A stretch of 64,000 bases of DNA, from positions 2,436,731-2,500,730 of the forward strand of contig WBVU01000005.1 in assembly GCA_009192285.1 (NCBI GenBank). The letters run 5' to 3'. The stretch's first letter is position 1; each line of letters begins with the position of its first letter. The notes under the pieces were generated by a model. It did not search any database and was not told where the DNA came from. It saw only the letters and a program-made list of their open reading frames with translations. Positions 7,829 through 42,519 of the stretch are shown here, one piece after another. Made by a program: the position numbers and the translations under genes. This stretch comes from Morchella semilibera. Lineage: Eukaryota; Ascomycota; Pezizomycetes; Pezizales; Morchellaceae.

Positions 7829-8215
7829 TCCTAGGACACGCCCAAATCGGCGTCTAGGATACGCCCAAATCGGCGCCTAGGACACGCCTACATCAGCAAG
7901 ATCTCATTTGTCTCCTGATGTCTCCTGAGCCTCAGGAGACTCTCAGGAGACCTGGGAGACTGTTGGGAGACTCCAGTCACAAGTTGAGTTTGCTGATTCA
8001 AATCGACGCCTAGGACACGCCCAAATCGGCGCCTAGGACACGCCCAAATCGGCGCCTAGGACACGCCCAAATCGGCGCCTAGGACACGCCCAAATTGGCG
8101 CCTAGGACACGCCCAAATTGACGCCTAGGACACGCCCAAATTGACGCCTAGGACACGCCCAAATCGGCGCCAAAACCTCGCCTAGGACATGCCCAAATCG
8201 ACGCCTAGTCCTATA
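7829..8215. repeat. 23-bp minisatellite array interrupted by a MITE
   Basis: Tandem units of about 23 bp built on CCTAGGACACGCCCAAATCG, roughly a dozen copies. The array is split by the MITE at 7891-7998. Unit variants differ by one or two bases. Short ORFs across it are chance. Confidence 0.9.
7891..7998 (+). mobile_element. CATCAGC-family MITE, copy 1 (108 bp, internally shortened)
   Basis: Starts CATCAGCAAG and ends TTTGCTGATT, a one-base variant of the family end TTGCTGATG. The interior has the family TCTCCTGAG/CTCAGGAGA palindromic blocks but lacks about 28 bp of the full-length consensus. It is inserted inside a 23-bp minisatellite unit. Flanks are TA on the left and CA on the right, so the target duplication is not clean here. 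Confidence 0.8.
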
Positions 8216-8470
8216 CCGACACGGTACCGAATCATCCTCCCAGGATCGAACCAAGCACCCAGGACCGAACCGAGCTCCTAGGACGATAACGAATCGACCT
8301 CCCAGGACCGAACCAAGCACTCAGGACGACACTGAATCGACCTCCCAGCACCCAATCATCCTCACAGGACCGAACCAAGCACCCAGGACCGAATCGAGCT
8401 CCTAGGACGACACCGAATCGACCTCCCAGCACCGAATCAACCTCCCAGCACCGAATCAACCTCCCATCGA
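8216..8470. repeat. Degenerate ~60-bp tandem repeat
   Basis: Blocks with GACCGAACCAAGCAC, GAGCTCCTAGGACGA and GAATCGACCTCCCAG recur about four times with variation. It abuts the 23-bp array and shares the CCTAGGAC core, so one may have grown from the other. Confidence 0.75.
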
Positions 8471-8739
8471 ATTGAGCGTTTCGGACGGCATCGAGTCAAG
8501 CACTTCGGGCGGCAGCGCATCTGGGAGAGCTCCTAATTGAGAGAGTGGAGTGGGCACAGGCGCAGGCCGGGAACATATATATATGTATATAGACTTAATA
8601 AATAATTATAGTTTCTTTTTATCACTTTTCCTGATCAATTTATTCGTATATGCATCATTTTTCTTCGTTATCCGAGTGTATTACCTTCTTCCTACCCGAG
8701 TGTGATACCATCACCTTTTCTGAGCAACCTTACCCGTAT

Positions 8740-8915
8740 ACGCATCACTCTCTTCCCTAGTACCCGAGCGATACCATCACCCTCCTCCCTCGTACCCGAG
8801 CGATATCATCACCCTCCTCCCTCGTACCCGAGCGATGCCATCACCCTCTTTCCTAGTACCCGAGCGATACCATCACCCTCCTCCCTAGTACCCGAGCGAT
8901 ACAATCACTTTTCTT
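8740..8915. repeat. 32-bp tandem repeat
   Basis: About five head-to-tail units built on TACCCGAGCGATACCATCAC followed by CCTCCTCCCTCG. Weaker related units flank it from about 8690 to 8970. Confidence 0.85.
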
Positions 8916-9234
8916 GAGCAACTCTACCTGTCCTTATACGCATTGCCTTCTTCCTACACAAGTACGATAACATCACCTTTCCTGAACAACCTACCCGCGT
9001 ACTTCGCGACACCTCATCTTTCCCACTCAATTCGATCCATCAACTTGAATAACACAGACGCGTTGCGTTCTTTGTTAATACAACGATCATTTCAAATCCA
9101 CCCGCACAACCACTACTCTCCCCCTTAAACAAGTCCTGAGCAAGCCCTTGATTCATCTACTTCTGTGGTGGAAAAAGGTAAACTTCGTCTCATCTCTTGT
9201 CTCAAGTTTGTGGAGAGAGGTCGCTTCGTTCAAA

Positions 9235-10755
9235 ATGCCAACAAAATCACAAAAACAAATTCATCGAGGCTATACCATCGCCTGTGCCAACCTTATCGCT
9301 AGCAATAAAGATCTCCTTTTTCTTGTCAAACATACCTACAAACCCAATCTCAAGAAGCAACTACTCGAGCAGTTAGAAGAATTATTTCCTAACTCTGCAA
9401 AAGTACCTGATCTTTGGTCAATGCTTGTTCAATTGAACTCTACTGGTTTTCCATTCTCTAAGGAATTATGCAATCTTCTCGAGGAAGCCTTTGATTTCTT
9501 TTCTGAAAAAAATAAAGAGAGGAATAAGATTCGTAAAGAGTTTATTTACGATCTAGGATTTAATTTGTCTCCTGCTAAAAGAGATCAATACCTTTCAATC
9601 TGTGAGGTTGTCTATCTTGCTCCTTTGATTGCACCATATCCTCCTGCAAATAAAATCATATTCGAGAACCAAAATATCCTTAATTTATGATACAATCATC
9701 TCCAAATTCAACCTCAGCCAGATCCTCGTCTTCCTCATCATCCCATGCATTTCCTCGACATATTCAAGTTACAATATGATGTCTTGCCTACCGACTCGAA
9801 GATTTTCAAAGACAGAGAAACTGGAGAGATTATTGGTATGGTTATGAGAAATTGGCTTCCCAGAACCTATCAAGATACTTTGGTTTGGGCCGATGATATT
9901 ATTCTCGATGGTTGCTATAAAAAAAGAAGTGTTCGAGTAAGTTTGATTTGATTTCTATATTAATTAATACTAATTTTACATAGCTTGAGGATCCTGGAAA
10001 GATCTGGCAGATTGGCTTCTCGGGTGGAGCTAGGAGTAGGCCTGCTCTAGATTGGACTCAAAACCTTCTTTCCAAAAAACACTCCAAAGAAGAAATTGAG
10101 CAATTAGATTACTCGTGCAGTAGTGTTTTTGCTTTATTTTGGAATATGTGTTTGAAGCGACTTCCGAGTCCTATTATCGATGACTTCAACCAATTCCTTA
10201 ATAACAGTAATCTTTTCAGGATGGATCGGAACAACTTGGGCCAGAAGTATGGGGAATATACTACTGTTGTTGGTGGTTTCGAGCATGAATTCAAGCAGGT
10301 TGCATCAGCAAACTCAACTTGTGACTGGAGTCTCCCAGCAGTCTCCCAGGTCTCCTCTGAGAGTCTCCTGAGACTCCTGGATATTTTTTGAGTCTCCTGA
10401 GGCTCAGGAGATATCAGGAGACAAATGAAGTCTTGCTGATGTGAAATGTCTCCACCTGTTGGATTCTTTGGTTTAAATTACTCTAGGTAAGTAATTTTCT
10501 ATATTTTTTCTTTCTTATTTAGATATTGATATTATTTTTAGGGGTACACATCGTGAAACTGGTTGCCCACATAAATATGGTATTTTTTGGACAATCAGTC
10601 GTACATTTGGAGAAGATGATGGTGGACATTTTTTCATGGCTAAGTATGGGATTCGAATTCGAGGGGCTGCTAATTCTATGGTGGTTTGGCACAGACAAAT
10701 AACGAAAAACAAGAATAACTATATACCAATAACTATAAATAGAAACACGGGATAG
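9235..10755 (+). pseudogene. 2OG-Fe(II) oxygenase-like gene (Tet/JBP-like?) broken by a MITE
   Basis: Exons 9235-9936, 9984-10486 (containing the MITE 10303-10441) and 10542-10755, with GT-AG introns of 47 and 55 bp in consistent phases. A lone in-frame TGA stands at 9688-9690. Reading across the MITE with one copy of its TG duplication removed gives an uninterrupted frame, so the element landed in an exon. The last exon carries THRETGCP, GGHFF and VVW, which line up in order with SHRDND, HGHFF and IVW of the clear Tet-like oxygenase at 14774-16212; this suggests the same double-stranded beta-helix fold. The first metal motif reads HRE rather than HxD, and the distal HGT-type histidine is missing because the frame runs into AT-rich DNA and stops at 10755. 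Dead or truncated. The Tet/JBP link is inference; the N-terminal half is unrecognised. Confidence 0.5.
10303..10441 (-). mobile_element. CATCAGC-family MITE, copy 2, in an exon
   Basis: 139 bp, starting CATCAGCAAACTC and ending CTTGCTGATG, reverse orientation relative to copy 1. TG lies on both sides (10301-10302 and 10442-10443), read as a 2-bp target duplication. Insertion adds a stop to the host oxygenase-like exon. Confidence 0.9.
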
Positions 10756-10839
10756 GATTTTGCAAGAGCTTATATATTGCATGCATAATAATGAACTGTA
10801 TGCACTAACGGGAGAAAAAAATGCCTCATATATAAAAAG

Positions 10840-11735
10840 TCAGGAAAAAGTGAAAAAAAAGTGACAGTAAGTGCCGGCAAGTAAAAATAGGCATGAATAA
10901 GCGTGGACAGCTACGGAATAATGTCTTAAAAGTACATACACGATAATATATCCAAAACCCCGCTAAGTGAAAAAAATGCCTCAATATATGGAAATAATGA
11001 TGGATAAGTAAAAATATATAGCAGTAAGTATCAACAAGTAGCAATAAGTAGGAATAATCTCCAACAAATAGAAATAAGCGAAAGACAATTACAAATAATA
11101 GTACGGGACAATGTCTTGTACTTGCCCGTTAGGGTAGCGCATACATATAAGCCACTTAGATAATATATAACATATCACTTTAAAGAAAATGAAAAAAAAA
11201 AAAAAACCTCAACATGTGAAAATAAGTACAAATAAGCAAGGATAAGTGGCAGCAAGTGCCAGCAAGTATGAATACGTGGCAACAACTAGAAATAAGTATA
11301 GACAAATGAAATCGAGTAAGAAGAGCTATATGCCAGAGAAGTATGGAAAAGTAGGAATAAGTATGGATAAGCAGGTCAATTACAAACAATTGCTACTATA
11401 AATAATCGAAATTGCTAAGCACTACCCGTTTGAGTAGTACAAGTCTGTTAATCATGTTATGCATAATATTTCACGAAAAATTTTCAATAGATAAGGATAA
11501 GCAGAAATAAGCAGGAATATGTAATCAAAAGTACCGATAAATACAAATAAGTATAGATAAGCGCTAATAGGCGTCATAAGTCTGATATTCCCTGCATGCT
11601 AGCCCAACAAATACGTAGAATAGATTTCGTCCCATATGGGAAAGTGGGAGTAAATAAGCCAGGATAACAGTAATAAGTGACGATAAATTAGAAGAAGTAA
11701 AAATAAGTATAGATTAGTGGTAATAAGTTGCAGCA
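10840..11735. repeat. Diffuse AATAAG-rich quasi-periodic array
   Basis: The motifs GGAATAAGTA, GGATAAGCA, AAATAAGTA and GGCAAGTG recur dozens of times at roughly 10-base spacing in clusters at about 10850-11060, 11205-11375, 11480-11575 and 11650-11735. Minus-strand ORFs through it are low-complexity and not gene-like. It may be a very old minisatellite. Confidence 0.6.
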
Positions 11736-12219
11736 ACTGTCGGCATTTAACAATTATTATACATTTCACATATATGCACCAAACATCAACGGATTTAGTT
11801 AATAATTTCATTGATATTATTACTTGAGATTTTATAATATTGTTGATGATATGTATATATCTATATATAATTCTTTGCAATCGCTATTCTGTTGTCCTTC
11901 ATACCTCAACTCATTTTCGAAATAAAGTCAAAGCTATTATACAAACCCCAAAGACATGGTTTGTACCCAATCATTCCTTATCAATAACTTAAGCGACTTA
12001 TCTTTCCACAGAATGATTCAATGTCTGAGCAAATCGTTTCTGATAAAAACAATCAACAACGGACCCAAGAAAATAATATCAATCTCAATCGTAATAAATA
12101 GGAGACCTTGAGATTTTTCCCCAAAACCTATACTTACGTATCTAGATCCCTTTATCGTACCATATAGTTATCACGGCATACTACGGACTTCACGGAAGGG
12201 AGGACATTGGAGAATGGGT

Positions 12220-12746
12220 TGTCGGGGTAGAAGGTTTCTTTTTGGGTTCTTGGGGTTTCTATAGGTTTCCGTTACACGATGTTATGAGTCATGATTGTAC
12301 AGGGATTAGGAGGGGTATATATATGTTGCTACGGATCTTTCCTTCGTTCTTTTCTTTCTCTTTCTTTCCTTACGTGTTCTTCCTGTTGTCAACCTTACGG
12401 TTTAGTTTCGTTTCGCCTTATGTTTTAGTTCCGAATATATTACGTTATAACCATAGTCGTTGCCAAGACTTGAAGGGTCTTCCATAATACTTCGCTTCGT
12501 CTTCGCTTCGCTTTGTCCTTGCTTCCGTTTCGCCTCGCTCATCCATAGCCCATAACAGTAGTCCGCGTCGTCTACTGGTATCTTCGTCTCCACGTCTTCG
12601 TCAGAGAGGCCATCTGGACCCTCTGCCCTACAACCCTGCTCCTCGGTTAAGTTCTCTCGCACTTGTTTCTCGCCCTCGTCCCCTGTCCCCGTCCCAGTTG
12701 TGTATCTCGGCTCTCTTGTCAGTCGTCTCTGTATTGCCCCGTAACA
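12220..12746 (+). mobile_element. Candidate solo LTR
   Basis: Starts TGTCGGGG and ends CCGTAACA (TG...CA). It holds ATGAGTCAT at 12284-12292 followed by a TATATATA box and a CT-rich leader, the same order as in the gypsy LTRs of this window. It shares the phrase ending GGTTTCCGTTACACGA with the LTR inserted at 37302-37703. No internal region and no target duplication are visible, so the borders are approximate. Confidence 0.5.
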
Positions 12747-12757
12747 ATAGTTCAATA

Positions 12758-14352
12758 ATGTCAATGCAATCAAGAGTTGCTGAAACTCTACTACCGGATA
12801 ATCAAAGACAAGAAGATACGCAAATCATTCCACCTACTATTCTTGATGACGATGCAACAATTCCAGATACTCAAATCCTCCGTGAACCTCAACCTCCTCA
12901 ACTACCAATTCTTTCATTCTCAGATGCTGGTCAATGGAGTGTTGGATCACGTATTAATACACGAAAGAGATTGCTAGGATCTATTCCTGAACATACCAGA
13001 GTGGAGATACAATTGTTGGAAGAGCATTTACAATACCATTACATAGCGTTGAAGTATTACTAAATACTTACATATTTGAATACTTTCTCACATGCAATTA
13101 GGAAGAAACTCGTCACGCAATGATCCTTGGAGACAGGGATGATGCCAGCAGGCAACATCCACGTCGTACTTCCGATGATATTAATGCATGGCTCCTACAA
13201 GCACAAGCAGATGCTACGAACTCTTCTTCATCTATTTCTACACCTGTATTCCCTGAATCTGTTACAGGCAGTAGCGAAATAACTACCATGAGCCAACTTG
13301 AAAGACCTTCGTACCGCTTAAAAGATCAAGCACCAGAAATCCAAACAATCTTGAAGATCGCGAATGATGGAGTTGATGCATATACATTCCTTGTGGAACC
13401 ATTTAGTCTTCCAGATCCGTTGAATCTTGCATTACAAAAAATATGGCTGGAATCTGCAACCAAAGCCAAAATGAATCCCCCGATCCTAAGTAACACCTAC
13501 CTCAAGATTGTAGGTTATAAATTCCCATTGCTTGAATAAATGGTTATTAATTTTAATAGATGAAAGACTTTCATGTTTATGCGAAATCTAGATTACTCAA
13601 CCGAATGAAGTCAAAACTGGAAAGATCACTATACGGATTCAGTGAACTATCAACCACAGAGAGAAAAGCTGAACGTGCAATATATCTTTTGTATAAAGAT
13701 AGATTTCTATGTCAACCAAAGTATTACGAGGTAATCAGATCTCTTTATAAAAATTAGCAAAAGAACTAATAATTATCTCGTATAGGATATTAAATTCTAT
13801 TTTTTAACTCCCGAATTGATTGAATTAATATACCATATATATTACCATGACACCACCGGACGAGTTCGAAAAGATGATATATTTCTTGAACAAATAAATT
13901 ATAAATTTATTTGTTTAGTTTCGACTGCCATCTGGTATAATTTACGTCGAATATCATTAGGAAATCCAACGAAAGCAAAACAATTGGGGCATTTTGGGTA
14001 CAAAAACAAAGATGTTTTAGGTAAGCTTGGTATCGAACTTAGCCTTTTCAAATACTAAAATAGAAATATTTCTGAGCTACGTATACACGACTAAAAAATA
14101 CTTGGATGGATCGAATGCCATCAGTTCAGGAGCATCTATTGAGACTTGTCAAAGATGAATTACGACAAATGGTAAAATCTCATTATTATTTTTTTATACT
14201 ATGAATCTTAATATAGATGAGACTCGCAGATCGAAGAAAATTCAACAAATGATATCTCAACAAAAATTGAAGGACATCAAGATGATGACGATGATTTAGA
14301 AAGAGAGCTAAATCTCCGAAGGAAAAGAGTAAGGCCAGATGATCGGGGATGA
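12758..14352 (+). CDS. Multi-exon uncharacterised protein, DUF6532-like
   Basis: Exons with good phases are about 13102-13509, 13560-13730 and 13786-14020, joined by introns 13510-13559 (GTAGGT...AG) and 13731-13785 (GTAATC...AG). An upstream coding block starts at ATG 12758, but its junction to 13102 could not be made in frame. Downstream, coding blocks at about 14064-14170 and 14226-14352 probably supply the end, an acidic DDDDD run followed by a basic RRKR stretch like a nuclear signal; their splicing is ambiguous. The central part, with KAERAIYLLYKDRF then ELIELIYHIYYHD and FICLVSTAIWYNL, resembles the DUF6532 family of fungal proteins of unknown function. It lies directly after a solo LTR and between two oxygenase-like genes. 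It may be functional or decaying. Confidence 0.45.
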
Positions 14353-14773
14353 GATACAGCCTAATGAACCCAGTATTACCCCACCCCCATATCCATCGGG
14401 TCAAGGTACACCTTAAAATGTACGTATTGAAATATCTGTATTGATGATATCAATATTACGATCATGAATATCAGAAGCTAATATCTCTATTACTTTTAGA
14501 GCGATCAAAAGAATTGTGACGGTAAATTTTCATTCCTATATTTGTTTTTGAAAGAGAAATATTTTTGCTATAAGTTGTATTTAAATTATGTTATTTTTTT
14601 TCTTAAATTAATCAATATATATATATATCTACTCAATAGATTTGCGATTATGAATCTTCGAATCTAGCCTAGATCGAAAATCCGATCGATGCGATAATTT
14701 AATTTAAATCCTATCTTATAAAATCTTTCCATTTAAAATACATGCTGAACTACAAAGCAGATCGATATTTCCG

Positions 14774-16212
14774 TTACGAAGTTCCGGTAATCCTTTCTAA
14801 CAACTCCTTCAATCTAACTACATTATCTTTAACATTTGCTACCCCTATTTGAATAGCATTTTGTACTCTTGTATTTAGCTGTTTATTCACTTGACATGTA
14901 GTTGCATATCTTGTAAATCCCGATCCGAAACCGCCCGTTGCGGTACCGTGATCATCCTCTGGACCACACCAAACGATCTCCGTAATTCCATCGATTGTTG
15001 CGAAATCAATTAGCGTTTTATAGATGGTACAGTAGAAGAAGTGTCCATGAGAATTGTAGCCATCAGAGAAGCGAACGATCGAACCGTCCGATGTCCGAAT
15101 AGGTGCCCATATTCCAGATGTATATTTAGAGACATCGTTGTCTCGGTGCGATTTATTCCAAAATCCATCATAAGTATAAGCAACTTGTGGTGTAAAAAGA
15201 GTCTCATTCTTTAGAAATATAGCCGACTTCGTTCTGTAATCGATGCCGAGAAGTGGTAGCTTTAGTTCTCGGACTTGCTGTTGTCTTTGCTGAAAGAATG
15301 CCGGTGCCATATCGAGAAAGCTTCTACTGAGATTGCGATGAAATCGTAGTGCTTGCGAGAAATGTTCAGATAGTGTATCTGGACATATGTTTTTATTCAT
15401 TGCGTATGTACCGAAATCCCAACCCGATTCCGTTCCGGCGCGATATCCTATAGATTTCATGACACCACCAGTCTGGGCATGATTGCATTTAATTTCTGAG
15501 TGAAATTTTTGATATTTTTGAACATAATTGAAGTTAAATTGTAGTTCCGATAAGCGTTCCAGTGCGAGATCTTTAAAGAGGGTAATTTTGTAGATTATTC
15601 GAACTTCTCGGGAAGCCGAATTGATAAAGTATACTGTCTTCGATTGGTTTCCGATAATTCGTTTAAATTTGCGATTATTTCAAATAGTATCATTATATGT
15701 CCATTCCTTCCCAAACATCTCCGTAGTGATCTCTTCGTCCCGTTTACGATGCATGAGAAATACCGATTCCGATTCAATATCTAAGAAGAGGGATATTAGC
15801 AGTGTTGATAATATTAATATAGAATCTAATTACCTTCTGGTTTCTTATTAATGAAATCTAGAGCTGACTTCCGTTCAATATCGATCTCTAGCTTGCGATT
15901 AGATTTGCGTTTGTTGCGTTTTGCGAGTTTACGATTTTGACGTTGGGTGTTGCGATCCAGTAGTTGTTTGTTTTGATTTCGACGTATTGCAAAGTGACGA
16001 TTAGATGCGATATGATCCTCTCCGCATTCAGTGACACGCTTACTAGCATCATCGAGGCGACTGAAGGCGATGTGATCCTCTCCGCGTTCAGCGACACGCT
16101 TACTAGCATCATCGTGGCGACCGAAGGCGATATGGTCCTCTCCGCGTTCAGCGACACGCTTACTAGCATCATCGAGACGACCGAGAGTATTGCGAGATTT
16201 GCGATAATCCAT
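14774..16212 (-). pseudogene. Tet-like 2OG-Fe(II) oxygenase gene with one in-frame stop
   Basis: Two exons on the minus strand, 16212-15834 and 15780-14774, joined in phase across a 53-bp GTAATT...TTAG intron, about 461 codons. The C-terminal half carries the Tet-like 2OG-Fe(II) oxygenase domain found in fungi: VAYTYDGF, the metal motif SHRDND (H338, D340), GIWAP, distal DDHGT (H404) and GFTRYA with the likely 2-oxoglutarate arginine (R417). The family is related to TET/JBP enzymes that oxidise 5-methylcytosine or thymine; the substrate of this subgroup is not established. The N-terminus has three near-perfect 20-residue repeats (core DDASKRVAERGEDHIAF) and a Lys/Arg-rich stretch, perhaps for DNA binding. 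A single TGA at 15682-15680 (codon 160) interrupts an otherwise open frame, so it is either a young pseudogene or is read through. All catalytic residues lie downstream of it. Confidence 0.75.
16006..16190. repeat. 60-bp tandem repeat encoding a 20-residue protein repeat
   Basis: Three head-to-tail units with the core GACACGCTTACTAGCATCAT. The period is a multiple of three, so the frame of the oxygenase exon is kept and each unit codes one 20-residue repeat. Confidence 0.9.
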
Positions 16213-16327
16213 GAAAATAACAAAGATATGGTATGAGCTGGAATACTAGAGAATGTTATTGCTATATAGAAAATGGACATAGAATGCTTGAACATTGTGG
16301 CCTCATATTTCAGTCAATTCTTATGCT

Positions 16328-16960
16328 CACTATAGTGCCGGATTTTTTCATAACTCCATGCACAGGCGTCACAGCCAATCGATGAGACATGCAAAAAAAA
16401 AAGTACTCCTTTTTGGCTTTTTTTTGGCCCCCCATTCGCTAATTTAGCACTAAAACTGACTGAGATATAAAATGGATCACTATAGTACCGAGTTTTTTCA
16501 TAACTCCGTGCACAGGCGTCACAGCCAATCGTTGAGACATGCAAATGAAAGTACTCCTTTTTGGCTTTTTTTTGGCCCCTTATTCGCCAATTTAGCACTA
16601 AAACTGATTGAGATATAAAATGGATCACTATAGTACCGGGTTTTTCCATAGCTCCATGCACAGCCCTCACAGCCAATCGATGAGATATGCAAATGAAAGT
16701 ACTCCTTTTTGGCTTCTTTTTGGCCCCTTATTCACTAATTTAGCACCAAAACTGACTGAGATATAAAGCCTTGATTTAATGGATCTTTATAGCGCCGAGT
16801 TTTTTCCATATCTCTGTCAGTTTTAGTGCTAAATTAGCGAATGAGGGGCCAAAAAAAGGCCAAAAAGGAGTACTTTCATTTACATATCTCAGCGATAGGC
16901 TGTGATGCCTGTGCATGGCGCTATCTAGGAAATAGAAAAAACCTGGCACTATATATATAT
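16328..16960. repeat. ~150-bp satellite: three direct units plus one inverted copy
   Basis: Units begin at about 16328, 16480, 16627 and (short) 16787 with CACTATAGT-CCG. Each contains a CATGCACAG/CGTGCACAG block, AAGTACTCCTTTTTGGC and TTAGCACTAAAACTGA. From about 16812 to 16960 the same unit appears in reverse complement, giving a ~150-bp stem. The inverted copy leads into the start of the Cys-rich ORF, so it may lie in that gene's promoter. Confidence 0.85.
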
Positions 16961-17003
16961 AGTATAGCTCATGCCTTCCTATTTTCCCCTATTGACAGCA
17001 ACA

Positions 17004-17636
17004 ATGTCTACTTCCTCTACCTCCTGGCCTGTCCGTAACGGAGTCCCAGTTTGGGACAAATTTATCAACAAACATCGAGCTGATTGGCTTGATCGTGCCT
17101 TTCGTTTACCCAGCCTCCATAACTCTATACAAATTAATACTCCTATGTGTACAACATGTTTTTCTGCTCTACAAGATCGTGGTCGCGAGTTCTGTGTTCA
17201 GAAACTTGATCCTACCAACCGAGTCATCTCCTCTTGTAACAACTGTTTACGTAATGGTCGCAAATGCTCTTTAAACCCTCGAACTCTTAAGCGACCAGTC
17301 ATTAGTCTCCTCTCCGATGAAGAAGACACTAGCACCGATAGTCCTTCCCCACCTCAACAGAACATCAAACGATTCCTACAAGATAAAGAAACTAAGAAAG
17401 AGGAAGTAAAGAAAGAAGAGGAAGCCGAGGGAAAGAGAAAACAACTTCTGAAGGAAATGAAATGCCATTTGGAAAGGAAAATGAGTTTCATCGATCAGAT
17501 TGAGATAGCCAAATATGAACAGGAAACTATGCGGGAGGAATACAAAAAACAGATTACCAGTTGTAAAAATCAGATTTCTAGAATAGATATGCTTGTATTG
17601 GAGCTTAGTGAAGAGCTACTTAAGTTGGATCTATAA
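17004..17636 (+). CDS. Cys-rich coiled-coil protein, unrecognised
   Basis: Intronless ORF of about 210 aa. ATG 17004 (MSTSSTSWPV) was preferred over the in-frame 16971 because sequence with globular character begins after it. The first half has paired cysteines (MCTTCF, then FCVQK, then SSCNNCLRNGRKCSL), a spacing like part of a zinc-binding cluster. The second half is strongly charged and predicted coiled coil from about residue 125 (KKEEVKKEEEAEGKRK onward). This suggests a DNA- or protein-binding accessory protein. The ORF starts directly beside an inverted satellite copy and no neighbour shares its strand. I do not recognise a named family. Confidence 0.5.
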   Translation: MSTSSTSWPVRNGVPVWDKFINKHRADWLDRAFRLPSLHNSIQINTPMCTTCFSALQDRGREFCVQKLDPTNRVISSCNNCLRNGRKCSLNPRTLKRPVISLLSDEEDTSTDSPSPPQQNIKRFLQDKETKKEEVKKEEEAEGKRKQLLKEMKCHLERKMSFIDQIEIAKYEQETMREEYKKQITSCKNQISRIDMLVLELSEELLKLDL

Positions 17637-32012: not shown

Positions 32013-32442
32013 CTTCCCCTCACTTGCCACATCGTATCAATTCTGACAGTTTATGGTGTGATGGTTTGAGGAGTCCTTTGGTCATAACGTCTGCTACATT
32101 GTTTTCGGTAGGGACGTATAGGAGTTCAAAGGTTCCGATGTCAGGTTGTTTTCTCGTAAAGTGATAGTGTACGTCGATATGTTTTGATAGATCATGTATT
32201 CTTGGGTTCCGACACAGATCTATAAAACCTGTATTATCTGCGTGTAGGAAGTATTGATATTCTTAGTGTAATTCTGTAAGGGCATGTTTCAGCTATACCA
32301 ATTGTCGAGCAGCGAGGGACAGTGCCATAGATTTAGCTTCTGTTGTTGAGACTGCGACTGATTTCTGCTTTCTGCTTCTCCAGCATAGTGCTACTTTTCT
32401 TGGTCTGAACACATATCCTGAGAATGATTTTTTGTCATCAAA

Positions 32443-32579
32443 CATCAGCAAGAGTTCATTTGTCTCCTGATGTCTCCTGAGCCTTAGGAGACTCAAAAAA
32501 TATCCAGGAGTCTCAGGAGACTCTCAGGAGACCTGGGAGACTGTTGGGACACTCCAATCACAAGTTGAGTTTGCTGATG
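32443..32579 (+). mobile_element. CATCAGC-family MITE, copy 3
   Basis: 137 bp with ends CATCAGCAAG and TTTGCTGATG, flanked by AA on both sides (32441-32442, 32580-32581). Inserted in the copia RNase H coding region. Confidence 0.9.
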
Positions 32580-32757
32580 AAGTTGGAGGCGTAAGAGCTG
32601 TCTGTAAATCCGTCGAGTGTTCTAGTGTTTCCTTTTGGGTAGAACAGGGTCGAGTCTTTGGTTCCGTTGAGATATCGGAGTACTCACTTTGCTGTTCATA
32701 GGTGGTCCTCTGTTGGGCATGAGGAATACTGAGAAAGGGCTGTAATAGCGTGGGTAA

Positions 32758-32893
32758 CATTAGCAAACTCAACTTGTGACTGGAGTCTCCCAACAGTCTC
32801 CCGGGTCTCCTGAGAGTCTCCTGAGACTCCGGATATTTTTTGAGTCTCCTGAGACTCAGGAGACATCAGGAGACAAATGAAGTCTTGCTGATG
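32758..32893 (-). mobile_element. CATCAGC-family MITE, copy 4
   Basis: 136 bp, starting CATTAGCAAACTC (one change) and ending CTTGCTGATG, flanked by AA on both sides (32756-32757, 32894-32895). It splits the copia reverse transcriptase end after ATRPDI. Confidence 0.9.
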
Positions 32894-32969
32894 AATATCG
32901 GGTCTGGTAGCTATACTGGCGTACATGAGTGATTCTATTATGTACTGGTATTGTGTTCGTCTAACGGGG

Positions 32970-33422
32970 TATCACGGCTCCGCCTCCTGCATCTCGCCTC
33001 CCGCTAAGGCGTCTTCGGAACAGGGTTGTTGGATAGTATCGGTCGATGTCGGAAGTAGAATGATGGATTAGGAAGGAGCTCGGGTGATAGAATGTAAGCG
33101 CTAGAAAGAATGGGGTAGTATCGGGTTAGAAGTATGGGTATTGGGAATAGTATGGGTGGCACGGAAGTGGGGGAGGTTCTATGGGATTCTATGGTTATGA
33201 GTCATCGGTGTGACAGGGTAGTTGTATATATAGTGTTCGTTCTTTCCTATGTTTCTGCCTCTCTAGGCAACGTCTTCTTTCTGTTAGCAATATATTACTT
33301 TGGCTTCGGCCCTCCTGCCTGCGCCCTGTCCCTGAACCTGATTTCGAACCTGAACCTGAACCTGCCTCGTCTCGGATATCTCCTGAGCTGATCCCGTCCT
33401 TGTCTCTCTGTCTTGAATCTCA
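32970..33422 (+). mobile_element. 5' LTR of the Ty3 element
   Basis: Begins TATCACGG and ends GAATCTCA. It contains ATGAGTCAT at 33197-33205, a TATATATA box about 20 bases later and a CT-rich leader. It has no MITE, so it is the empty reference for the insertion in the 3' LTR. Confidence 0.85.
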
Positions 33423-33495
33423 CCCGCTTTGCCTCTGACCCGACCCTGCCCTGTTAGACTACGTTGTCTCAGCCTTTGGCTCTCGAGATACTACT

Positions 33496-34890
33496 ATGGC
33501 AGCCTCCGGATCTTCGTTCATTATCGCTCCTCCACCTGTTATTACCGAACGCATCGCTAGCAGCGATGTGGTTCTTGCCACTTGGGCCGCTCTTGAGGAT
33601 ATCCAAGCTTTTTCCAATCAATACGACCACCACAAGGCTCTTCTCTTCGATCTTCTGGAGTATAATATCTCTCGCATTAGACATGAGAGAGACATGGCCC
33701 GTTTCGAGAGAGACACGGCTTTGAATACTGCCTCTGTTATCTCCGACTTTGAACAGCAAATCACGACCCTGGAAAGCCAGCTCGCGGAGGTCTGCCAGCT
33801 CAATAGTCTGCTGACGGCCCAAGCAGCTACTCTTCCTCCTGCTCCTCCTATCGCTCCTCCTCCTGCTCCTCCTATCGCTCCTCCTCCTGCTCCTCCCATT
33901 GCTCCGCCTGCGGCTCCACCTCCGACCCCTCGCTCCGAGAAGATTCTCGATCCACCTAAGTTCGAGGGTAAGAGGGAGAAACTCCGCCCCTTTGTTACCC
34001 AACTCCGCCTCAAGATGCTTGCCAACCATGATTGCTTCCCCGCCGCCCAACTTGAAGCCCGCCTTGCCTATGCTATTAACCTTCTTTCTGGTCGTGCCCT
34101 TGCCCAGGTAATGCCCCTCATTGTTGGAGGACGCATCGACCTAGAAGATATTGAGGCCCTGATTACCATTCTGGAAACCGCTTTTGGAGATCCAGACCGT
34201 ATTGCCACCGCCAAACGAGAACTTGAACGTCTTACCCAAGGCAGCCGAGACTTCTCCACCTACTTCGCTGAGTTCCAACGCTTGGCTGCTGAGGTTAGAT
34301 GGAACGATGAGGCCAAGAAACACGCACTCACTCAAGGCCTCTCCCGCGAGCTCCGCTCCGACATGATCCACCACGATGTCCCTGCCACTACTTCTGAATA
34401 TGTTCTTTTGCTCTAAAAGTTGGATAACAGACTCAGGGATGCTCATGCCAGAGACCGCTCCTGCCCCTTTGTCGCCCGTCAACTTTATACTCCCTCTGCT
34501 CCTGCCCGTGCGTCTGCTCCCGCTTCTGCTTCGGCCGCTCCTGCTCCTCACCCATCCTACTCTCCAGGTGGTGCGGTGCCAATGGACCTCTCTGGTGCCC
34601 GCCGCCCCCAGCGCCGTGGCCCGATTACCCCCGTTGAGCGCGCCCGCCGTGCTGCTCAGGGACTCTGCATGTATTGCGGAGGTCCTGAGCATTTTGCTGC
34701 TGAATGTCCTGCCCGTCCTATTGCTCGTCCTGCTCGGGTTGCTGCTACTTCTGAGGTCGGTGTACCTCCGGTTATGTCTGGGGCCGGCACGCCTCCTGTT
34801 GTTAATCATGCTTCTCGCCCTTCTTCTTCTCCGGGTTATGTTGTGGGTTTCCTTTTGGTGCTTCTTCTTCTTTTGGCTCCGGTTCTTTGA
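33496..34890 (+). pseudogene. Ty3 gag with in-frame stop
   Basis: ATG 33496 opens a frame with a coiled N-terminal part, a Pro/Ala-rich linker (PPPAPPIA repeats), the retrotransposon gag core (KFEGKREKLRPFVTQL ... FSTYFAEFQRLA) and a zinc knuckle with C-x2-C-x4-H-x4-C ([14 protein letters not shown]) near 34665. One TAA at 34414-34416 interrupts the frame, most simply from CAA. Gag forms the particle shell and the knuckle binds the RNA. The following protease lies in a different frame, either by programmed shift or by a later indel. Confidence 0.85.
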
Positions 34891-37301
34891 GTTTGGGTTC
34901 TCCCGGTGCGATTTCTGCTACTGCTCCAGATCAGTCGGGTTTTCACGAGGACCTGTCTTAGGTGGCTTAGGCCAGGTTCCCCCTCTTTTTTTGTCTGCTT
35001 CTGCTGCTTCTAGTGTCTCTGATGAGAAGGTCTCAGATAACGATTATCTTGTTGTCTCATGTATTGTATCTGATGAAAATAAAACTGTTAAGACCTACTC
35101 GCTTGTTGACACCGGGGCTTCCGGATTTGCATTCATTGATGAATCATTTGTACGCCACAAGGAAATTCCCACTACTCTTCTCTCCAATCCCCGTGCTCTT
35201 CATGTTATCGACGGTAGAGAAATCTCCTCCGGTAGCATTACCCATATTGTTCATTTTTCTCTCCGCATTCAAGGTCATGTCGAAGAGATTTCCGCGTATG
35301 TTACTCGCTTGGGACATTATCCGTTAGTGCTAGGTATTCCCTGGCTCCGCCGACATAATGTCAACATTAATTTCGCTGATAACTTGTTGACCTTCGGGTC
35401 CCCTCGTTGTCTTCAACGTTGCAATGATTATTAAGTCCCTGTTTATGTTAAAGGAATTACTTCGCCTCTCCCTGCCAGTCACGACTTCGAGATTGTCAGT
35501 GCTGCCACCTTTGCCGAGACCACCCAGAGACTGACCGTTTATGCCCTGTTCCTTGGTGATTCTACGGAGTCGATACCTTCGGAAATTGCTGCTTTAGTCC
35601 CCCCTAAACATTATCACTTCTGGCAACGGTTTGGAAAAGAAGGCCCCCAGAAGCTGCCTCCTCATCGTCCCTATGATATCCGAATTAATCTCCATGAGGG
35701 AAAGGAACCCCCCTTTAGCCCTCTGTACAGCATGTCCCGGGACGAATTGGCCGCACTGATCGAATATATAGACGATATGTTGAAGAAGGGCTTCATTGAA
35801 TCTAGCTCCTCCCCCGCTGGATCTCCTGTTCTGTTTGTGAAGAAACCTGATGGTGGTCTTCGATTCTGTGTGGACTATCAAGGATTGAATGCCATTACGG
35901 TTAAAAACCGCTATCCGTTGCCGCTACCTAAGGAAACCTTTAATCATCTCTGTAAGGCCAAGTGGTATACGAAGTTGGATCTGAAGAATGCTTACAATTT
36001 GGTCCGAGTTGCAGCTGGAGACAAATGAAAAACGGCGTTCCGCACTAGAGTCGGCCACTTTCAGTATAAAGTAATGCCTTTTGGATTGACCAACGCTCCT
36101 GCCGTCTTTCAGCACTTTATTAACGATACCCTTCGCCCCTTTTTAGACCGCTTCTGCACGGCTTATCTTGATGATATCCTTATTTATAGTGAGGATTTGG
36201 AATCACACCGCGACCATGTTAACCAGGTTCTGCAAGCTCTTACCGACGCCGACCTTTACTACTCCTCCGAGAAGTGCGAATTCCAGGTCAAGGAAGTAAA
36301 GTATCTGGGTATGACTATTACCACCGAAGGCCTGAAGCTCGACCCCAAAAAGGTTGAAACCATTGTTAAGTGGGTCCGTCTCCTAAATGTTAGGGATATA
36401 CAGGTATTCAATGGTTGGGCCAATTTCTATCGACGCTTTATTAAAAATTATTCGGGGATTGTCCGTCCTCTTACATTGCTTACCAAGGGAAATGTACTGT
36501 TTATATGATCCCCGGCTTGCAAAGAGGCGTTTGAAGGATTGAAGACTGCGTTTACCACTGCCCCAATTCTTCGACATTTTGACTTTGATCGCCGAGCCAC
36601 TGTAGAAACAGATGCGTCAGACTATGTTTCAGGTGGTACTCTCTCTCAGTACAGTGATGAGAATATTCTCCACCCTGTTGCTTATTTCTCTGGAACTCAC
36701 TCCCCCGCTGAATGCAATTACGAGATCTACGATAAAGAATTGCTGGCTATTATTAAGTGCTTCGAGGAATGGAGAGCTGAACTGATGTGTGTCGCCGAAC
36801 CTATCGAAGCTCTCAGCGATTATCGGAATTTGGAATATTTTATGACCAAGAGAGATCTGAATCGCCAATAGGCATGCTGGTCAGAGTTTCTTTCGCGGTT
36901 TAATTATGTGATTAAGTATCGGCCAGGAAAGCAAGGGGGAAAGCCGGATGCATTGACTAGGAGATCAGGAGATTTGCCTAAAGAGGGGGATGAATGCCTG
37001 ACGCAGCAAATTCAGACAGTGTTGAAGTCCCATAATTTGAGTTTGTTGGCAGCCATTCCGGCTGTCCGAGGACAGTCACCCCTAGAAAAACTCTTTGAAC
37101 AGGCTTATATCACTGACCCATTTCCGAATAAAATCTTAGGACTTCTCCGAGACGGCGTTGGGCACTCCTGAGAGATTACACTAGCAGAATGTTCGACCAG
37201 GAAAGGCCTCCTGACCTACCGCGGGAAACTCTTTATTCCAGATGATGCGTCTCTGCACTTGCACCTGTTGAAAGAACACCATGATGCTCCGTCTGCAGGC
37301 C

Positions 37302-37703
37302 TTTCATGGATACGCTAGGTTCGGAGTGCTGGAAGGATTGGCAGGGTTGGGATTATTGTAAGCTAGGAGGCGGGGATGAGTCAGAGTAGATTCTATGGGT
37401 TTCCGTTACACGAGAACATGAGTCATGGTCGGGATTACGCGGGGATATGAGTCAGGCTTGGCTCTGAATTAATAGGTATATAAGGGAGGCAATGGTGTCG
37501 ACTTCTGTATTTTCTTTCTTCTTCTTTTCTCTTTACGCAACGTCTTCTGTATCTATCTACAATACATTATAGTCCCTACTTTCCAATAGTGACTATCGCT
37601 GTTCCTGGTACTTCTCGTTCATACTTCCCCCCTCTTGGGAAGTATCGCTGCTATTACCCCGCACCCTGCGGAACGAAGCCATAACCTCGACACCCCCTTG
37701 AGA
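37302..37703 (+). mobile_element. Solo LTR nested in the Ty3 integrase region
   Basis: 402 bp flanked by AGGCC on both sides (37297-37301 and 37704-37708), a 5-bp target duplication. Removing it plus one AGGCC rejoins the integrase frame (SAG to HTGKAKTFQLLARSYYW). Inside are ATGAGTCAT at 37418, a second TGAGTCA near 37449, a TATATAA box and a CT-rich leader. It is related in part to the LTR at 12220-12746. Confidence 0.8.
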
Positions 37704-37737
37704 AGGCCACACCGGGAAAGCAAAAACCTTCCAGCTT

Positions 37738-37874
37738 CATCAGCAAGACCCCATTTGTCTCCTGATGTCTCCTGGGTCTCAGGAGACTCAAAAAATCTCC
37801 AGGAGTCTCAGGAGACTCTCAGGAGACCCGGGAGACTGTTGGGAGACTCCAGTCATAAGTTGAGTTTGCTGATG
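37738..37874 (+). mobile_element. CATCAGC-family MITE, copy 5
   Basis: 137 bp flanked by TT on both sides (37736-37737, 37875-37876). Inserted in Ty3 integrase coding DNA, 34 bp from the solo LTR. Its removal restores FQLLARSYYW. Confidence 0.9.
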
Positions 37875-39122
37875 TTCTCGCTCGTTCCTACTATTGGCCA
37901 GGGATGTGCAATACAGTGGACCGCTATGTTAGGAATTGTCATACCTGTAGTCGTAGTAAGACAGCTCGCCATGCCCCCTATGGAGTTCTTCGACCTCTAC
38001 CGATTCCTCAGAGACCTTGGACACATATTTCCATGTACTTCGTTATAGGACTGCCAGAAAGCAAGGGAAGAGATGCGATTCTCATAGTAGTCGACCGCCT
38101 ATCAAAGATGAGGCACTACATTGCCTGTAATACTACCACCGGATCTGAAGACCTTGCACGTTTCTTTATTGACCATGTTTGGAAACTTCATGGTCTTCCC
38201 ACCAGTATTGTTTCTGACCGGGGTACCCAGTTTACATCCGGATTCTGGAAATCCCTGTGCAAGGTTCTTAACATCAATATTGCGATGTCTCCTGCCTTCC
38301 ACCCCAAAACGGATGGCCAAACGGAGCGGATCAATGCGGTGATGGAACAATATCTGAGAAGTTACGTTTCCTATCAACAGGATGACTGAGTAGATTGGCT
38401 ACCGCTTGCTGAATTTGCTTCGAATAATCATCCCTCGGATACGACGCAGGTCTCTCTTTTATGGCCAACTATGGATTCGATCTTCGTTTTACGGAGAACC
38501 TGGCATTGCCCCCGGTTTCGGATCGCCCCCAGGATACTAATGCTCTGGTTCGAAAGATGCACGAGATCCACGACCAGTTGCAAGCTGAAATACGCTATAC
38601 TCAAGATCGACAGGAGACTAATGCCAATATCCGTCGAGTCCCTGCTCCTCTGTATAAAGTAGGTGACGAAGTATGGCTTAATGCCAGGAATATCCAGATC
38701 ACTAGACCCTCCCGGAAGCTTGATTGGAAACGACTCGGCAGGTTTAAGATTAAGTCGGTTATTAGCCCCTATGCCTATGAATTTGATCTCCCCTCCACCA
38801 TGAAGATATATCCTGTCTTTCATGTGTCAAAGCTCGAGCCCTTCGCTACGGATCCTCTACCAGGACATGTTCTCCCTCCGGCACCTTCGGTGATTGTTGA
38901 TGGTGATGAAGAATAGGAAGTTGATGAACTTTTAGACTCTCGCCTTCGCTACTCATGTCTGCAGTATTTGGTTAAGTGGAAGGGCTATGATGCGCCAACT
39001 TGGGAGTATGCTGAGAATCGTACTAACGTCCTCCATCTGTTGACCCATTTTCATACGGCATATCCCACCAAGCTGAGATCTGACGGAGTTCTCGCGGAGC
39101 TCGAACCTAATGAGAGGGCAAC

Positions 39123-39713
39123 TATCATGGCTCCGCCTCCTGCATCTCGCCTCCCGCCAAATCGTCTTCGGAACAGGGTTGTTGGATAGTATCGGTCGAT
39201 GTCGGAAGTAGAATGATGGATTAGGAAGGAGCTCGGGTGATAGAATGTAAGCGCTAGGAAGAATGGGGTAGTATTGGGTTAGAAGTATGGGTATTGGGAA
39301 TAGTACATCAACAAGACTTCATTTGTCTCCTGATGTCTCCTGAGCCTCAGGAGACTCAAAAAATATCTGGGAGTCTCAGGAGACTCTCAGGAGACCCGGG
39401 AGACTCTTGAGAGACTCCAGTCACAAGTTGAGTTTGCTGATGTATGGGTGGTACGGAAGTGGGGGAGGTTCTATGGGATTCTATGGTTATGAGTCATCGG
39501 TGTGACGGGGTAGTTGTATATATAGAGTTCGTTCTTTCCTATGTTTCTGCCTCTCTAGGCAACATCTTCTTTCTGTAGCAATATATTACTTTGGCTTCGG
39601 CCCTCCTACCTGCGCCTTGTCTCTGAACCTGATTTCGAACCTGAACCTGAACCTGCCTCGTCTCGGGTATCCCCTGTGCTGATCCCGTCCTTGTCTCTCT
39701 GTCCTGAATCTAA
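39123..39713 (+). mobile_element. 3' LTR of the Ty3 element, carrying a MITE
   Basis: Begins TATCATGG and ends GAATCTAA. Contains ATGAGTCAT at 39489-39497. The end of the pol frame overlaps its first 67 bases. Length is 591 bp including the MITE copy 6. Confidence 0.85.
39306..39442 (+). mobile_element. CATCAGC-family MITE, copy 6, in the 3' LTR
   Basis: 137 bp. The 5' LTR reads GGGAATAGTATGGGTGG with no insertion; here TA precedes and follows the element (39304-39305, 39443-39444), so the 2-bp target duplication is read directly from the pair. Confidence 0.95.
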
Positions 39714-39745
39714 CGGGGCGGGGTAGGATCAGGGACGGGGCGGGG

Positions 39746-40298
39746 TAAATTCCAGGACAGAGACAGGACGGAGTCGGCTCAGGATACAACCAAGGCGGAG
39801 CAGGTTCAGATTCGGATTCAGGTTCAGGAACGAGGCGAAACAGGGGGGCCGAAGCCAAAGTGATATATTGCTAACAGAAAGAAGACGTTGCCTAGAGAGG
39901 CAGAAAGATAGGAAAGAACAAGCACTATATATACAACTATTCCCTCACCCCGATGAATCACACCATAGAAACCCATAGAAACTCCCACACTCCTGTACCA
40001 CCCATACTATTCCCAATAACCCCAACTCTATCCCGTTGCTACTCAATCCTTCCTAGTGCTTACATTCCATTACATCAGCAAGCTTCACCATTTGTGACTG
40101 GAGTCTCCTGAGTCTCCTGACAATCTCCTGAGTCTCCTGAGACCCCTGTAATCTCCTGAGACTTGTAAAATCTTGCTGATGTACCCGAGCTCCTTCCTAA
40201 CCCATCACTCTACTTCCGACATCGACCGATATTATTCAACAACCCTGTTCCGAAGACGCCTTGGCGGAAGGCGGGGTGTAGGAGGAGGAGCCATGATA
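39746..40298 (-). mobile_element. Inverted LTR of a second Ty3 copy
   Basis: Reverse complement of the gypsy LTR: starts TAAATTCC at 39746 and ends CCATGATA at 40298. It holds a MITE (40073-40181). It is separated by 32 bp of CGGGG-rich DNA from the plus-strand 3' LTR, making a tail-to-tail inverted repeat. Its GCN4-type site has decayed to ATGAATCA at about 39953. Confidence 0.85.
40073..40181. mobile_element. CATCAGC-family MITE, copy 7 (109-bp variant)
   Basis: Ends CATCAGCAAG and TTGCTGATG, with TA on both sides (40071-40072, 40182-40183). The interior is a shorter, rearranged set of TCTCCTGAG blocks. Its position in the LTR differs from copy 6, so the two inserted independently. Confidence 0.85.
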
Positions 40299-40350
40299 GT
40301 TGCCCTCTCTTCAGGTTCGAGCTCCGCGAGAACTCCTTCAGGTCTCGAGT
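40232..40350 (-). pseudogene. C-terminal pol fragment of the second Ty3 copy
   Basis: On the minus strand the frame reads EGVLAELEP, ERATIMAPPP and RLRNRVVE then a stop, matching the end of the first element's pol (DGVLAELEP...RLRNRVVG). It is cut off at about 40345 by DNA resembling the start of the LTR family that follows. Confidence 0.75.
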
Positions 40351-40396
40351 CCCGGCGTCTTGGCATCAGTCCAGAGGGTTCGGTGGTCGAAGCGCT

Positions 40397-41015
40397 TGTG
40401 ACAGAGTAACCTGACGCAAAGAAGAAGATAACAATGATGACGCAGAAGAACCCGGGGGCACAGTCTAAGCGACGAGGGGACCGACGAAGACAAGGATAAC
40501 ACCGGGCCGGCACGAGTACAGGCACCGGCGAATGTAAAAGCACAAGGGTACAGGACAGAGAGAGTGAGGACCGGATGGACCTCAACGAGAACGATGAGAG
40601 GTACTATGGGTTTCCTCTTGTTAGAGGATCGAGTCTTTGGTACGAGAGGCTATGGCTTTAGAATAGGAGTAGATTCTTATGTACCGAGATAACAGGAAGA
40701 CGAGACAGAGAGAAAAGAAAGAAAGAACTAAGGAAAACTTCTATCCCTGCTATTTAACACACCTCCTTCACCAGTCCGCTATGACTCATGCCTTCATTCC
40801 TAGAATCCCATCAAAACCCATCGCTACCACACCTCGTGTTTCTTCCCACCATCTTCACTATTTACATTACCAATCCATCACGCCATCGAACCTCCTAGAA
40901 CCTAATGACGACACCCCCTCCTCAGCACACCTCTTCCTCGCTTAACATTTCTCCAACAATCACAACAGCGCTTCGACTACCAAACCCTCGGGACCTATGC
41001 CAAGACGCCAGGACA
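40397..41015 (-). mobile_element. LTR family 2, copy A
   Basis: About 619 bp. On the minus strand it starts TGTCCTGGCG and ends CTCTGTCACA. ATGACTCAT stands at 40781-40789. It is highly similar to copies B and C and in the same orientation. No clean target duplication (flanks GCGCT and GAACT). A ~49-bp piece of the same LTR start lies in the opposite direction at about 40348-40396. Confidence 0.75.
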
Positions 41016-41228
41016 GAACTCGGCCCAGCCTTGTTCTGTTTCGGAGTGATGGGTGGTGATGTCGATCGCATATTGCTGAACCCCTCCATGTGCTCTTTGA
41101 AGGAGGGCATATGCTTGCTTCGCTTTTTCCGTTGCGGCGAGGTCCACTTCAAGGTGGGCGACAAAGGGCCCTTCGGGATCTATATGGAGCTTTTGATAAT
41201 CAAATCCATTGGTAGCTGGAGCAGTCAT
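41016..41228 (-). pseudogene. Short gag-start remnant between LTRs
   Basis: Minus-strand ATG at 41228 opens a frame (MTAPATNGFDYQKLHID...) that runs about 70 codons up to the border with LTR copy A. A leader of about 50 bp separates it from LTR copy B. Its placement after an LTR suggests the start of an internal ORF of the element that owns these LTRs, the rest having been deleted. No domain is recognisable. Confidence 0.4.
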
Positions 41229-41284
41229 GATGAACTATGGTGCAAGGAACTTCGAGCTGTGCCAGTCGAGTAAAGGTGGTCTCG

Positions 41285-41917
41285 TGTAACGGAGTAACCC
41301 GACGCAAAGAAGAAGATGACAATGATGACGCAGAAGAACCCGAGGAGTACAGCCTAGCGACGAGGAGACTGTCGAAGACAAAGGCAACACCGGGGCAGGC
41401 ACAAGCACAGGCACCGGCGAAGGCAAAGGCAAGGACAAAGGCACAAGGGCACAGGGCAGGGAGAGTGAGGATCAGATGGACCTCAACGAGAACGATGAGA
41501 AATGCTATGAGTTTCCTCTTGTCAGAGGATCAAGTATTTGGTACGAGAGGCTATGGCTTAAAAATAGGAGTAAATTTCTATGTTCCGAGATGACAGGAAG
41601 ACGAGACAGAGAGAAAAGAAAGAAAGAACTAAGGAAAACTTCTATCCCCTTTATTTAACACACCTCCTTCACCAGTCCGCTATGACTCACACTTCCGCTC
41701 ATAGAACTCCATAGAAACCCGTCGCTTACCCCACCTCGTATTCCTCCCCACCAACTCCGTTATTCATATTATAAATTCATCACGCCACCGAATCTCCTAG
41801 AACCTAATGACGACACCCTCCCTTTAACACACCCTTTCCTCGCTCAACTATTCCTAAACAATCACAACAGCGCTTCGCCTACCAAGCCCTCGGGACCGAT
41901 GCCAAGACGCTGGGACA
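41285..41917 (-). mobile_element. LTR family 2, copy B, with 5-bp target duplication
   Basis: 633 bp, TG...CA ends on the minus strand, flanked by TCTCG on both sides (41280-41284, 41918-41922). This marks it as a solo LTR inserted in the leader next to the gag-start remnant. A GCN4-type ATGACTCA occurs at 41682. Confidence 0.85.
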
Positions 41918-42083
41918 TCTCGTCTTAGTGTGACGGAGTAGCTTGACGCAAAGAAGAAGATGACAATGGTGACGCAGAAAGACCCGAGGAGCACAGCCTA
42001 AGCGACGAGGAGACCGACGAGGATAAAGGTAACACTGGGCAGGCACAAGCACAGACACTGGCAAAGGCAAAGGTAAGGGCAAA

Positions 42084-42220
42084 CATCAGCAAACTCAACT
42101 TGTGACTGGAGTCTCCCAAGAGTCTCCCGGGTCTCCTGAGAGTCTCCTGAGACTCCTGGATATTTTTCAAGTCTCCTGAGGCTCAGGAGACATCAGGAGA
42201 CAAATGAAGTCTTGCTGATG
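42084..42220 (-). mobile_element. CATCAGC-family MITE, copy 8
   Basis: 137 bp flanked by AA on both sides (42082-42083, 42221-42222). LTR copies A and B lack it at the matching position, where a single AA is seen. Confidence 0.95.
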
Positions 42221-42382
42221 AAGGCACAAGGGCACAGAGCAGGGAGAGTGAGGACCAGATAGACCTCAATGAGAATGATGAGAGGTGCTATGGGTTTCCT
42301 CTCGTCAGAGGATCGAGTATTTGGTACAAGAGGCTATGGCTTAGAAATAGGAGTAGATTCCTATGTACCGAGATAACAGGAA

Positions 42383-42519
42383 CATCAGCAAGACTTCATT
42401 TGTCTCCTGATATCTCCTGAGCCTCAGGAGACTCAAAAAATATCCAGGAGTTTCAGGAGACTCTCAGGAGACCTGGGAGACTGTTGGGAGACTCCAGTCA
42501 CAAGTTGAGTTTGGTGATG
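42383..42519 (+). mobile_element. CATCAGC-family MITE, copy 9
   Basis: 137 bp flanked by AA on both sides (42381-42382, 42520-42521). LTR copies A and B read ACAGGAAGACGAG uninterrupted, so the duplicated AA is seen directly. The right end has one change (GGTGATG). Confidence 0.95.

Follow-up and report, generated by a model that had tools for sequence, protein, structure and literature searches.

A high-copy miniature element of Morchella semilibera with PlavakaB-type ends and variable 2-bp target duplications

Introduction

Plavaka elements form a little-studied group of fungal transposons. The PlavakaB families have CATCA..TGATG ends and target duplications of 2 or 3 bp (PMC12730594, Kojima 2025, section 3.2.2), and the Plavaka families treated in that section come from Agaricomycotina. 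Section 3.1.6 of the same paper attributes to the CMCT clade a D-D-E transposase with C(2)C and H(3-4)H motifs. For Marasmius oreades, the terminal inverted repeat motif of KDZ and Plavaka elements is said to be characterized in a supplement (PMC8290104). Here, we analyzed a family of short repeats in the ascomycete Morchella semilibera, starting from a 64,000-nucleotide stretch of its genome (GenBank assembly GCA_009192285.1, contig WBVU01000005.1, positions 2,436,731 to 2,500,730), referred to as the window, for which an earlier note based on the sequence had described nine copies of a miniature inverted-repeat transposable element (MITE). We consider these repeats to be a non-autonomous cut-and-paste MITE that belongs to the Plavaka superfamily and has the PlavakaB terminal type, a reading to which we assign a probability of about 90%.

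Results

The genome searched comprised 56.8 Mb in 23 contigs (C1, C2 and so on), with the window located within contig 21. A paired-end pattern, CATCAGCAA N(100-130) TTGCTGATG, requiring perfect 9-bp ends 118-148 bp apart, gave 612 matches genome-wide versus none for the reversed control. This number is a lower bound because the pattern skips copies with altered ends as well as a shorter subfamily. A set of 119 copies was then compiled from the 30 best matches of one window copy (32443, named like all others by its first position), the first 15 places on C1, 40 further C1 places, the window copies and copies within other fetched stretches; copies having ends with more than one altered base were left out, and one 163-bp entry probably represents mispaired nested ends. 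Within this set, 102 copies are exactly 137 bp long and 105 have both 9-bp ends perfect, with CATCA..TGATG termini. Identity to the consensus over the 102 full-length copies averaged 96.5% (lowest 89.8%), four copies were identical, and the family is, judged from its sequences, fairly young. Flanks were distinct in 117 of the 119 copies. The MITE status proposed earlier is, therefore, borne out by a non-coding interior, inverted ends, uniform length, a target duplication and hundreds of paired-end copies.

The earlier note had described this duplication as 2 bp long and not strictly TA, and the larger set agrees: the flanking dinucleotides matched exactly in 107 of 119 copies (shuffled mean 14.4, maximum 25), while 3-bp agreement occurred once (shuffled mean 1.9). 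Only 23 of the 107 duplications read TA, as expected from the statement that the family does not fit the Tc1/mariner TA rule. With strands merged, the 105 duplications at 117 distinct sites comprised CA/TG (28; 13.4 expected from window composition), AA/TT (28; 15.3), TA (23; 6.9), AG/CT (8; 13.6), GA/TC (7; 13.5), AT (3; 7.7), CG (3; 4.3), CC/GG (3; 13.2), AC/GT (2; 11.7) and GC (0; 5.2). The information content over the 107 copies was 0.44 and 0.24 bits at the two positions within the duplication and at most 0.14 bits at the flanking positions read.

Related sites without the element were found for three insertions. At locus L050, a MITE is flanked by TC on both sides, and the relative L046 runs uninterrupted with a single TC. 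Two window copies, 32443..32579 (minus strand, 137 bp) and 32758..32893 (plus strand, 136 bp), each with an AA duplication, have paralogous empty sites on C1 in the related repeats L122 and L123. For 32758, L122 is continuous with a single AA and L123 has GA at this point; for 32443, both relatives are continuous with AG versus AA at the filled site, a difference of one substitution. As uninterrupted related sites carry a single dinucleotide, the duplication arises by insertion, and its length is 2 bp.

Because these ends and duplications are those given for PlavakaB (PMC12730594), the genome was searched for the Plavaka domain PF18759. The search returned 128 matches, a count that includes exon pieces and near-duplicate contigs, and none in 14 control genomes. 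An element on C2 was found to carry CATCAGCAAG at both ends, AA on either side and sequence of a C7 Plavaka transposase gene inside, as identified by BLAST; this copy contains one N and is absent from the listed PF18759 matches. This element interrupts a second Plavaka copy, of which an uninterrupted relative lies on C17. Its family, termed P48, showed the 5′ end pattern at 40 places and the 3′ end pattern at 44, with one mismatch allowed. Among 17 convergent end pairs 9.0-13.5 kb apart, 12 enclose a PF18759 match. Identical 2-bp flanks were present in 10 of the 13 P48 copies with flanks read, namely six of eight copies of at least 3.7 kb (TC, AA, TA, TA, AA, AA) and four of five copies of at most 1.1 kb (AT, AG, TA, AC); outer flanks of copies bearing an N were still counted. 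One P48 copy is nested in a MITE with a TC duplication. Since this genome contains Plavaka elements with these 10-bp ends and with 2-bp duplications of variable sequence, and PlavakaB is described with such features, the ‘unusual or relaxed transposase’ suggested in the earlier note is unnecessary. The coding part of P48 consists of adjacent open frames of 258 and 692 amino acids, both with Plavaka matches and probably joined by an intron. Two copies are 99.8% identical across 6 kb, so that the family probably moved recently.

Short P48 copies were considered as natural intermediates between full-length elements and MITEs and were rejected because each holds a single N (L105, 152 bp; L108, 294 bp; L106, 305 bp; L104, 326 bp). 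A single N is also present in L107 (1,097 bp) and in the C2 copy L050 (3,674 bp; position 7879). In the four shortest copies, it apparently marks where the 5′ and 3′ parts meet. All six copies, therefore, probably represent full elements that were collapsed where the assembly has a gap. Two further P48 loci had unusual structures. At L112 (C1:2162845-2163285), a P48 5′ end runs straight into MITE end B minus its terminal 9 bp, which looks like a fusion of P48 and MITE ends at the 9 bp they share. In the joined stretch L048 and L052, a P48 copy carries an insertion of about 634 bp (7859-8492), and comparison with the C3 copy shows 6 bp of overlap at the break; 6-bp duplications are reported for IS3EU elements of rust fungi (PMC12730594). 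In the L046/C17 Plavaka family, copies are 97-99% identical; L046 is read as N over part of its length, and the sequence read around it contained no CATCAGCAA end. A further Plavaka family, P47 (L047/L049), yielded one end, CATCAGCAAGCTTGC, but not the other. The best named relative of one Plavaka transposase of the genome, at 66%, also comes from Morchella.

Several MITE and P48 places are present on both members of near-duplicate contig pairs. Such pairs (C21/C22, C9/C10 and C12/C13) carry matching repeats at nearly equal offsets and perhaps represent two nuclear haplotypes. For two P48 ends on C22, one a 5′ end (C22:1569005) and the other a 3′ end (C22:2376463), no counterpart is listed on C21. 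Two comparisons, each scoring 40 candidates, gave no second place spanning the whole window.

We compared the MITE with P48 beyond their common CATCAGCAA(G) terminus, using alignment scores that exclude the shared 9 bp and a background of 400 window stretches. MITE end A scored 36 against the P48 3′ end, aligning over 44 bp, and 32 against the 5′ end, with a background of at most 24 (0/400). The second subfamily, MITE2, represented by copy 40073, reached 28 and 29 at the P48 3′ end (0/400 each) and 22 and 22 at the 5′ end, where 6 and 5 of the 400 background stretches scored as high. The MITE and four P48 ends have 32, 25, 20 and 17 7-mers in common, and 303 background stretches gave a mean of 4.7 and a maximum of 17, reached by one stretch. 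Motifs of the GTCTCC/GGAGAC type are dense near the ends of P48, over 600 bp at the start and 400 bp at the end of the C2 copy and over the final 400 bp in the C7 copy.

The predicted model of the L046-family Plavaka transposase resembles a RAG1/Transib-type enzyme, with identities of about 7-13% in the fold alignments; a sequence search of solved structures yielded no useful match (best E value 0.95). C(2)C and H(3-4)H motifs lie between the second D and the E in the L046, L047 and L048 proteins and in 43-46 of 47 rows of a wider Plavaka protein alignment. Residues 780-976 of the L046 open reading frame (1920-4883, minus strand) are predicted, within the whole-protein model, to adopt a fold like that of a BAH chromatin reader, and this C-terminal region is covered in 40 of the 47 aligned proteins. 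A literature search for BAH domain, transposase and CACTA in combination found no paper.

All nine copies reported for the window were recovered, with plus denoting end A (CATCAGCAAACTCAACTT) at the left. Besides the two copies with empty sites described above, the main subfamily, MITE1, comprises 7891..7998 (minus; 108 bp and internally shorter), 10303..10441 (plus; 139 bp, TG duplication), 37738..37874 (minus; 137 bp, TT), 39306..39442 (minus; 137 bp, TA), 42084..42220 (plus; 137 bp, AA) and 42383..42519 (minus; 137 bp, AA). MITE2 is represented by 40073..40181 (plus; 109 bp, TA), with three more relatives of 109, 109 and 89 bp among the loci fetched to that point. The earlier counts of seven copies of 136-139 bp and eight with identical flanking dinucleotides (AA four times, TA twice, TT and TG once each) hold. 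The 9-bp inverted ends described as common to all are perfect on both sides in five copies; 7891 (TTGCTGATT), 32758, 39306 (left end, CATCAACAA) and 42383 (right end, TTGGTGATG) each have one base altered in one end. The copy with differing flanks, 7891 (TA/CA), lies inside a 23-bp minisatellite. Because the repeat unit reads CA at that point (...GCC-CA-AATCG), the flanks would once have been CA/CA, most simply a CA duplication followed by one later C>T change. Places with at most one mismatch to CATCAGCAA number 32 in the window versus 15.3 expected (largest shuffle 22), and BLAST of both subfamilies against the window revealed no tenth copy. No listed PF18759 match falls inside the window, in keeping with the earlier remark that it lacks an autonomous partner, and no search there for long elements with decayed ends was made.

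Among other features of the window, a TET/JBP-like 2OG-Fe(II) oxygenase (PF20515) at 14939-15553 (minus strand) and 10691-11200 is the best such match in the genome. As further copies of the 10691-11200 repeat lie at distances of 3.2-4.4 kb from six other TET places (C11, C6, C2 twice, C7 and C1), the TET-bearing sequence is probably a TET-carrying transposon; TET-carrying Helitrons have been reported in Pezizales (PMC12730594, section 3.3). Retrotransposon gag and protease frames lie between MITE copies at 33496-35434. At 45432-48215, a NACHT-like (NPHP3_N) frame adjoins ankyrin-repeat frames in an NLR-like gene. The window also encodes a vacuolar membrane protease with a best hit at 67% and named Morchella relatives at 59-63%.

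Discussion

The repeats noticed in the window are real, and their explanation is ordinary but informative: most likely, they represent a high-copy PlavakaB-type MITE and not a new kind of transposon. A number of observations weigh against this assignment. Twelve of the 119 MITEs are without a 2-bp duplication, with 4-bp agreement in three copies and 5-bp agreement in one, and no transposition event was observed in this analysis. Five of the 17 P48 pairs contain no listed PF18759 match and three of the 13 P48 copies have no duplication. The modeled transposase belongs to L046, around which the CATCAGCAA end was not seen, and not to P48. Similarity between MITE end B and P48 is close to background. 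P47, a second family with a CATCAGCAAG end, does not resemble the MITE subterminally (8 and 7 common 7-mers). GTCTCC-type motifs also form an array in the interior of P48, located in the C7 copy 5.6-6.4 kb inward of the 3′ end, and the motif is, therefore, not purely terminal. Lastly, no long element with the 25-bp end B of the MITE was found in the part of C1 examined. This end occurs at 474 places (250 + 224), and all eight lone B ends, picked by eye on C1 up to 2.9 Mb by comparison with the paired-end listing, proved to be MITEs: five have a decayed partner end (L053, L055, L057, L058 and L059), L056 and L060 are truncated, and L054 is an intact copy of 108 bp.

If the family were a Tc1/mariner or pogo MITE whose TA specificity had become relaxed, the 2-bp duplication and the status of TA as the most enriched single dinucleotide would be accounted for. 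This reading is contradicted by the small share of TA among the duplications and by the presence in the genome of Plavaka elements that match the MITE in ends and duplication length, and the non-TA duplications at empty sites largely refute it, so that we regard it as very improbable. We think equally little of a classical CACTA/EnSpm or PIF/Harbinger MITE with an atypical duplication length. The 5′-CA..TG-3′ ends found in most of the CMCT clade (PMC12730594, section 3.1.6) would suit such an origin, but fungal EnSpm has CAC..GTG ends and 3-bp duplications, and canonical Harbinger elements also duplicate 3 bp, though related lineages duplicate 0, 2 or 3 bp (PMC12730594); here, the ends are CATCA and 3-bp agreement is confined to a single copy. 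The idea that the repeats result from tandem or segmental duplication draws on their clustering in places, as on C1, and on an interior of short repeats. Distinct flanks in nearly all copies, precise ends, duplications and empty sites refute it and leave it virtually no weight.

A closer alternative concerns the parent: the MITE, mobilized by Plavaka, may derive directly from P48 by internal deletion instead of from a sister family. The shared 9-10-bp end, GTCTCC-rich subterminal sequence and the alignment of end A to the P48 3′ end speak for this origin. Against it, similarity past the shared end is partial and end B is near background versus P48 (scores 28 and 26, equaled by 4 and 11 of the 400 background stretches), and the P48 copies of 152-326 bp are not intermediates, given their single N and probable collapse at assembly gaps. 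We consider direct descent possible but rather doubtful. The MITE groups, on sequence grounds, with P48-like Plavaka elements, with P48 itself as a candidate parent only.

Returning to the PlavakaB-type reading, we infer that the MITE is moved in trans by a Plavaka transposase and that a P48-related family may be the source of the enzyme. A transposase encoded elsewhere in the genome would recognize the CATCAGCAA(A/G) end and probably also bind the repeated GTCTCC/GGAGAC motif beside it. As suggested by the enzyme family, a RAG1/Transib-like DDE enzyme would pair both ends, excise the element and transfer its strands into a new site with a 2-bp stagger, which host repair would convert into the 2-bp duplication, with TA, CA/TG and AA/TT as favored targets and AC, CC and GC as rare ones. 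The 2-bp duplication and precise ends are the observed outcome, and the intermediate steps are modeled on the family. A more ambitious joint reading, which we advance tentatively and hold to be unlikely in its entirety, would be that this is the first recognized Plavaka MITE family, present in an ascomycete with at least 612 copies, in which a RAG1-like transposase requiring hardly anything beyond a 9-bp end and a GTCTCC array mobilizes miniature elements with varied interiors and a C-terminal BAH-like domain steers landing. Among 5.39 million open papers, Plavaka is mentioned in 11, in one of these or another together with Pezizomycetes, and in none together with MITE as whole words; an earlier description is possible, as the original Plavaka report and most subscription papers were outside this coverage. 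Being 137 bp long, present in hundreds of copies and accompanied by clear empty sites and by candidate full-length partners, the MITE offers a convenient substrate for studying the end and target rules of a RAG1-related transposase. For annotation, fungal CATCA..TGATG miniatures with variable 2-bp duplications should be checked for a Plavaka origin before they are classified as odd Tc1/mariner elements.

Compared with known systems, fungal Tc1/mariner MITEs are likewise short, numerous and flanked by a 2-bp duplication, but the duplication of the present family is not limited to TA and its ends are of the Plavaka type. RAG1/Transib enzymes, which generate 5-bp duplications, are matched by the predicted fold of the L046 Plavaka transposase. 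CACTA/EnSpm MITEs share with the present family short inverted ends starting with CA and subterminal repeats in both orientations. They differ in that fungal EnSpm elements have CAC.. ends and 3-bp duplications (PMC12730594). With respect to PlavakaB, the MITE is distinct in being 137 bp long and non-coding and in residing in an ascomycete, whereas the Plavaka families treated in section 3.2.2 of PMC12730594 are from Agaricomycotina; the word MITE is absent from the main text of that paper. The MITE agrees with PlavakaB in its CATCA..TGATG ends, its 2-bp duplication and the presence in the same genome of PF18759 transposases with CxxC and HxxxH motifs within elements that have the same 10-bp end.

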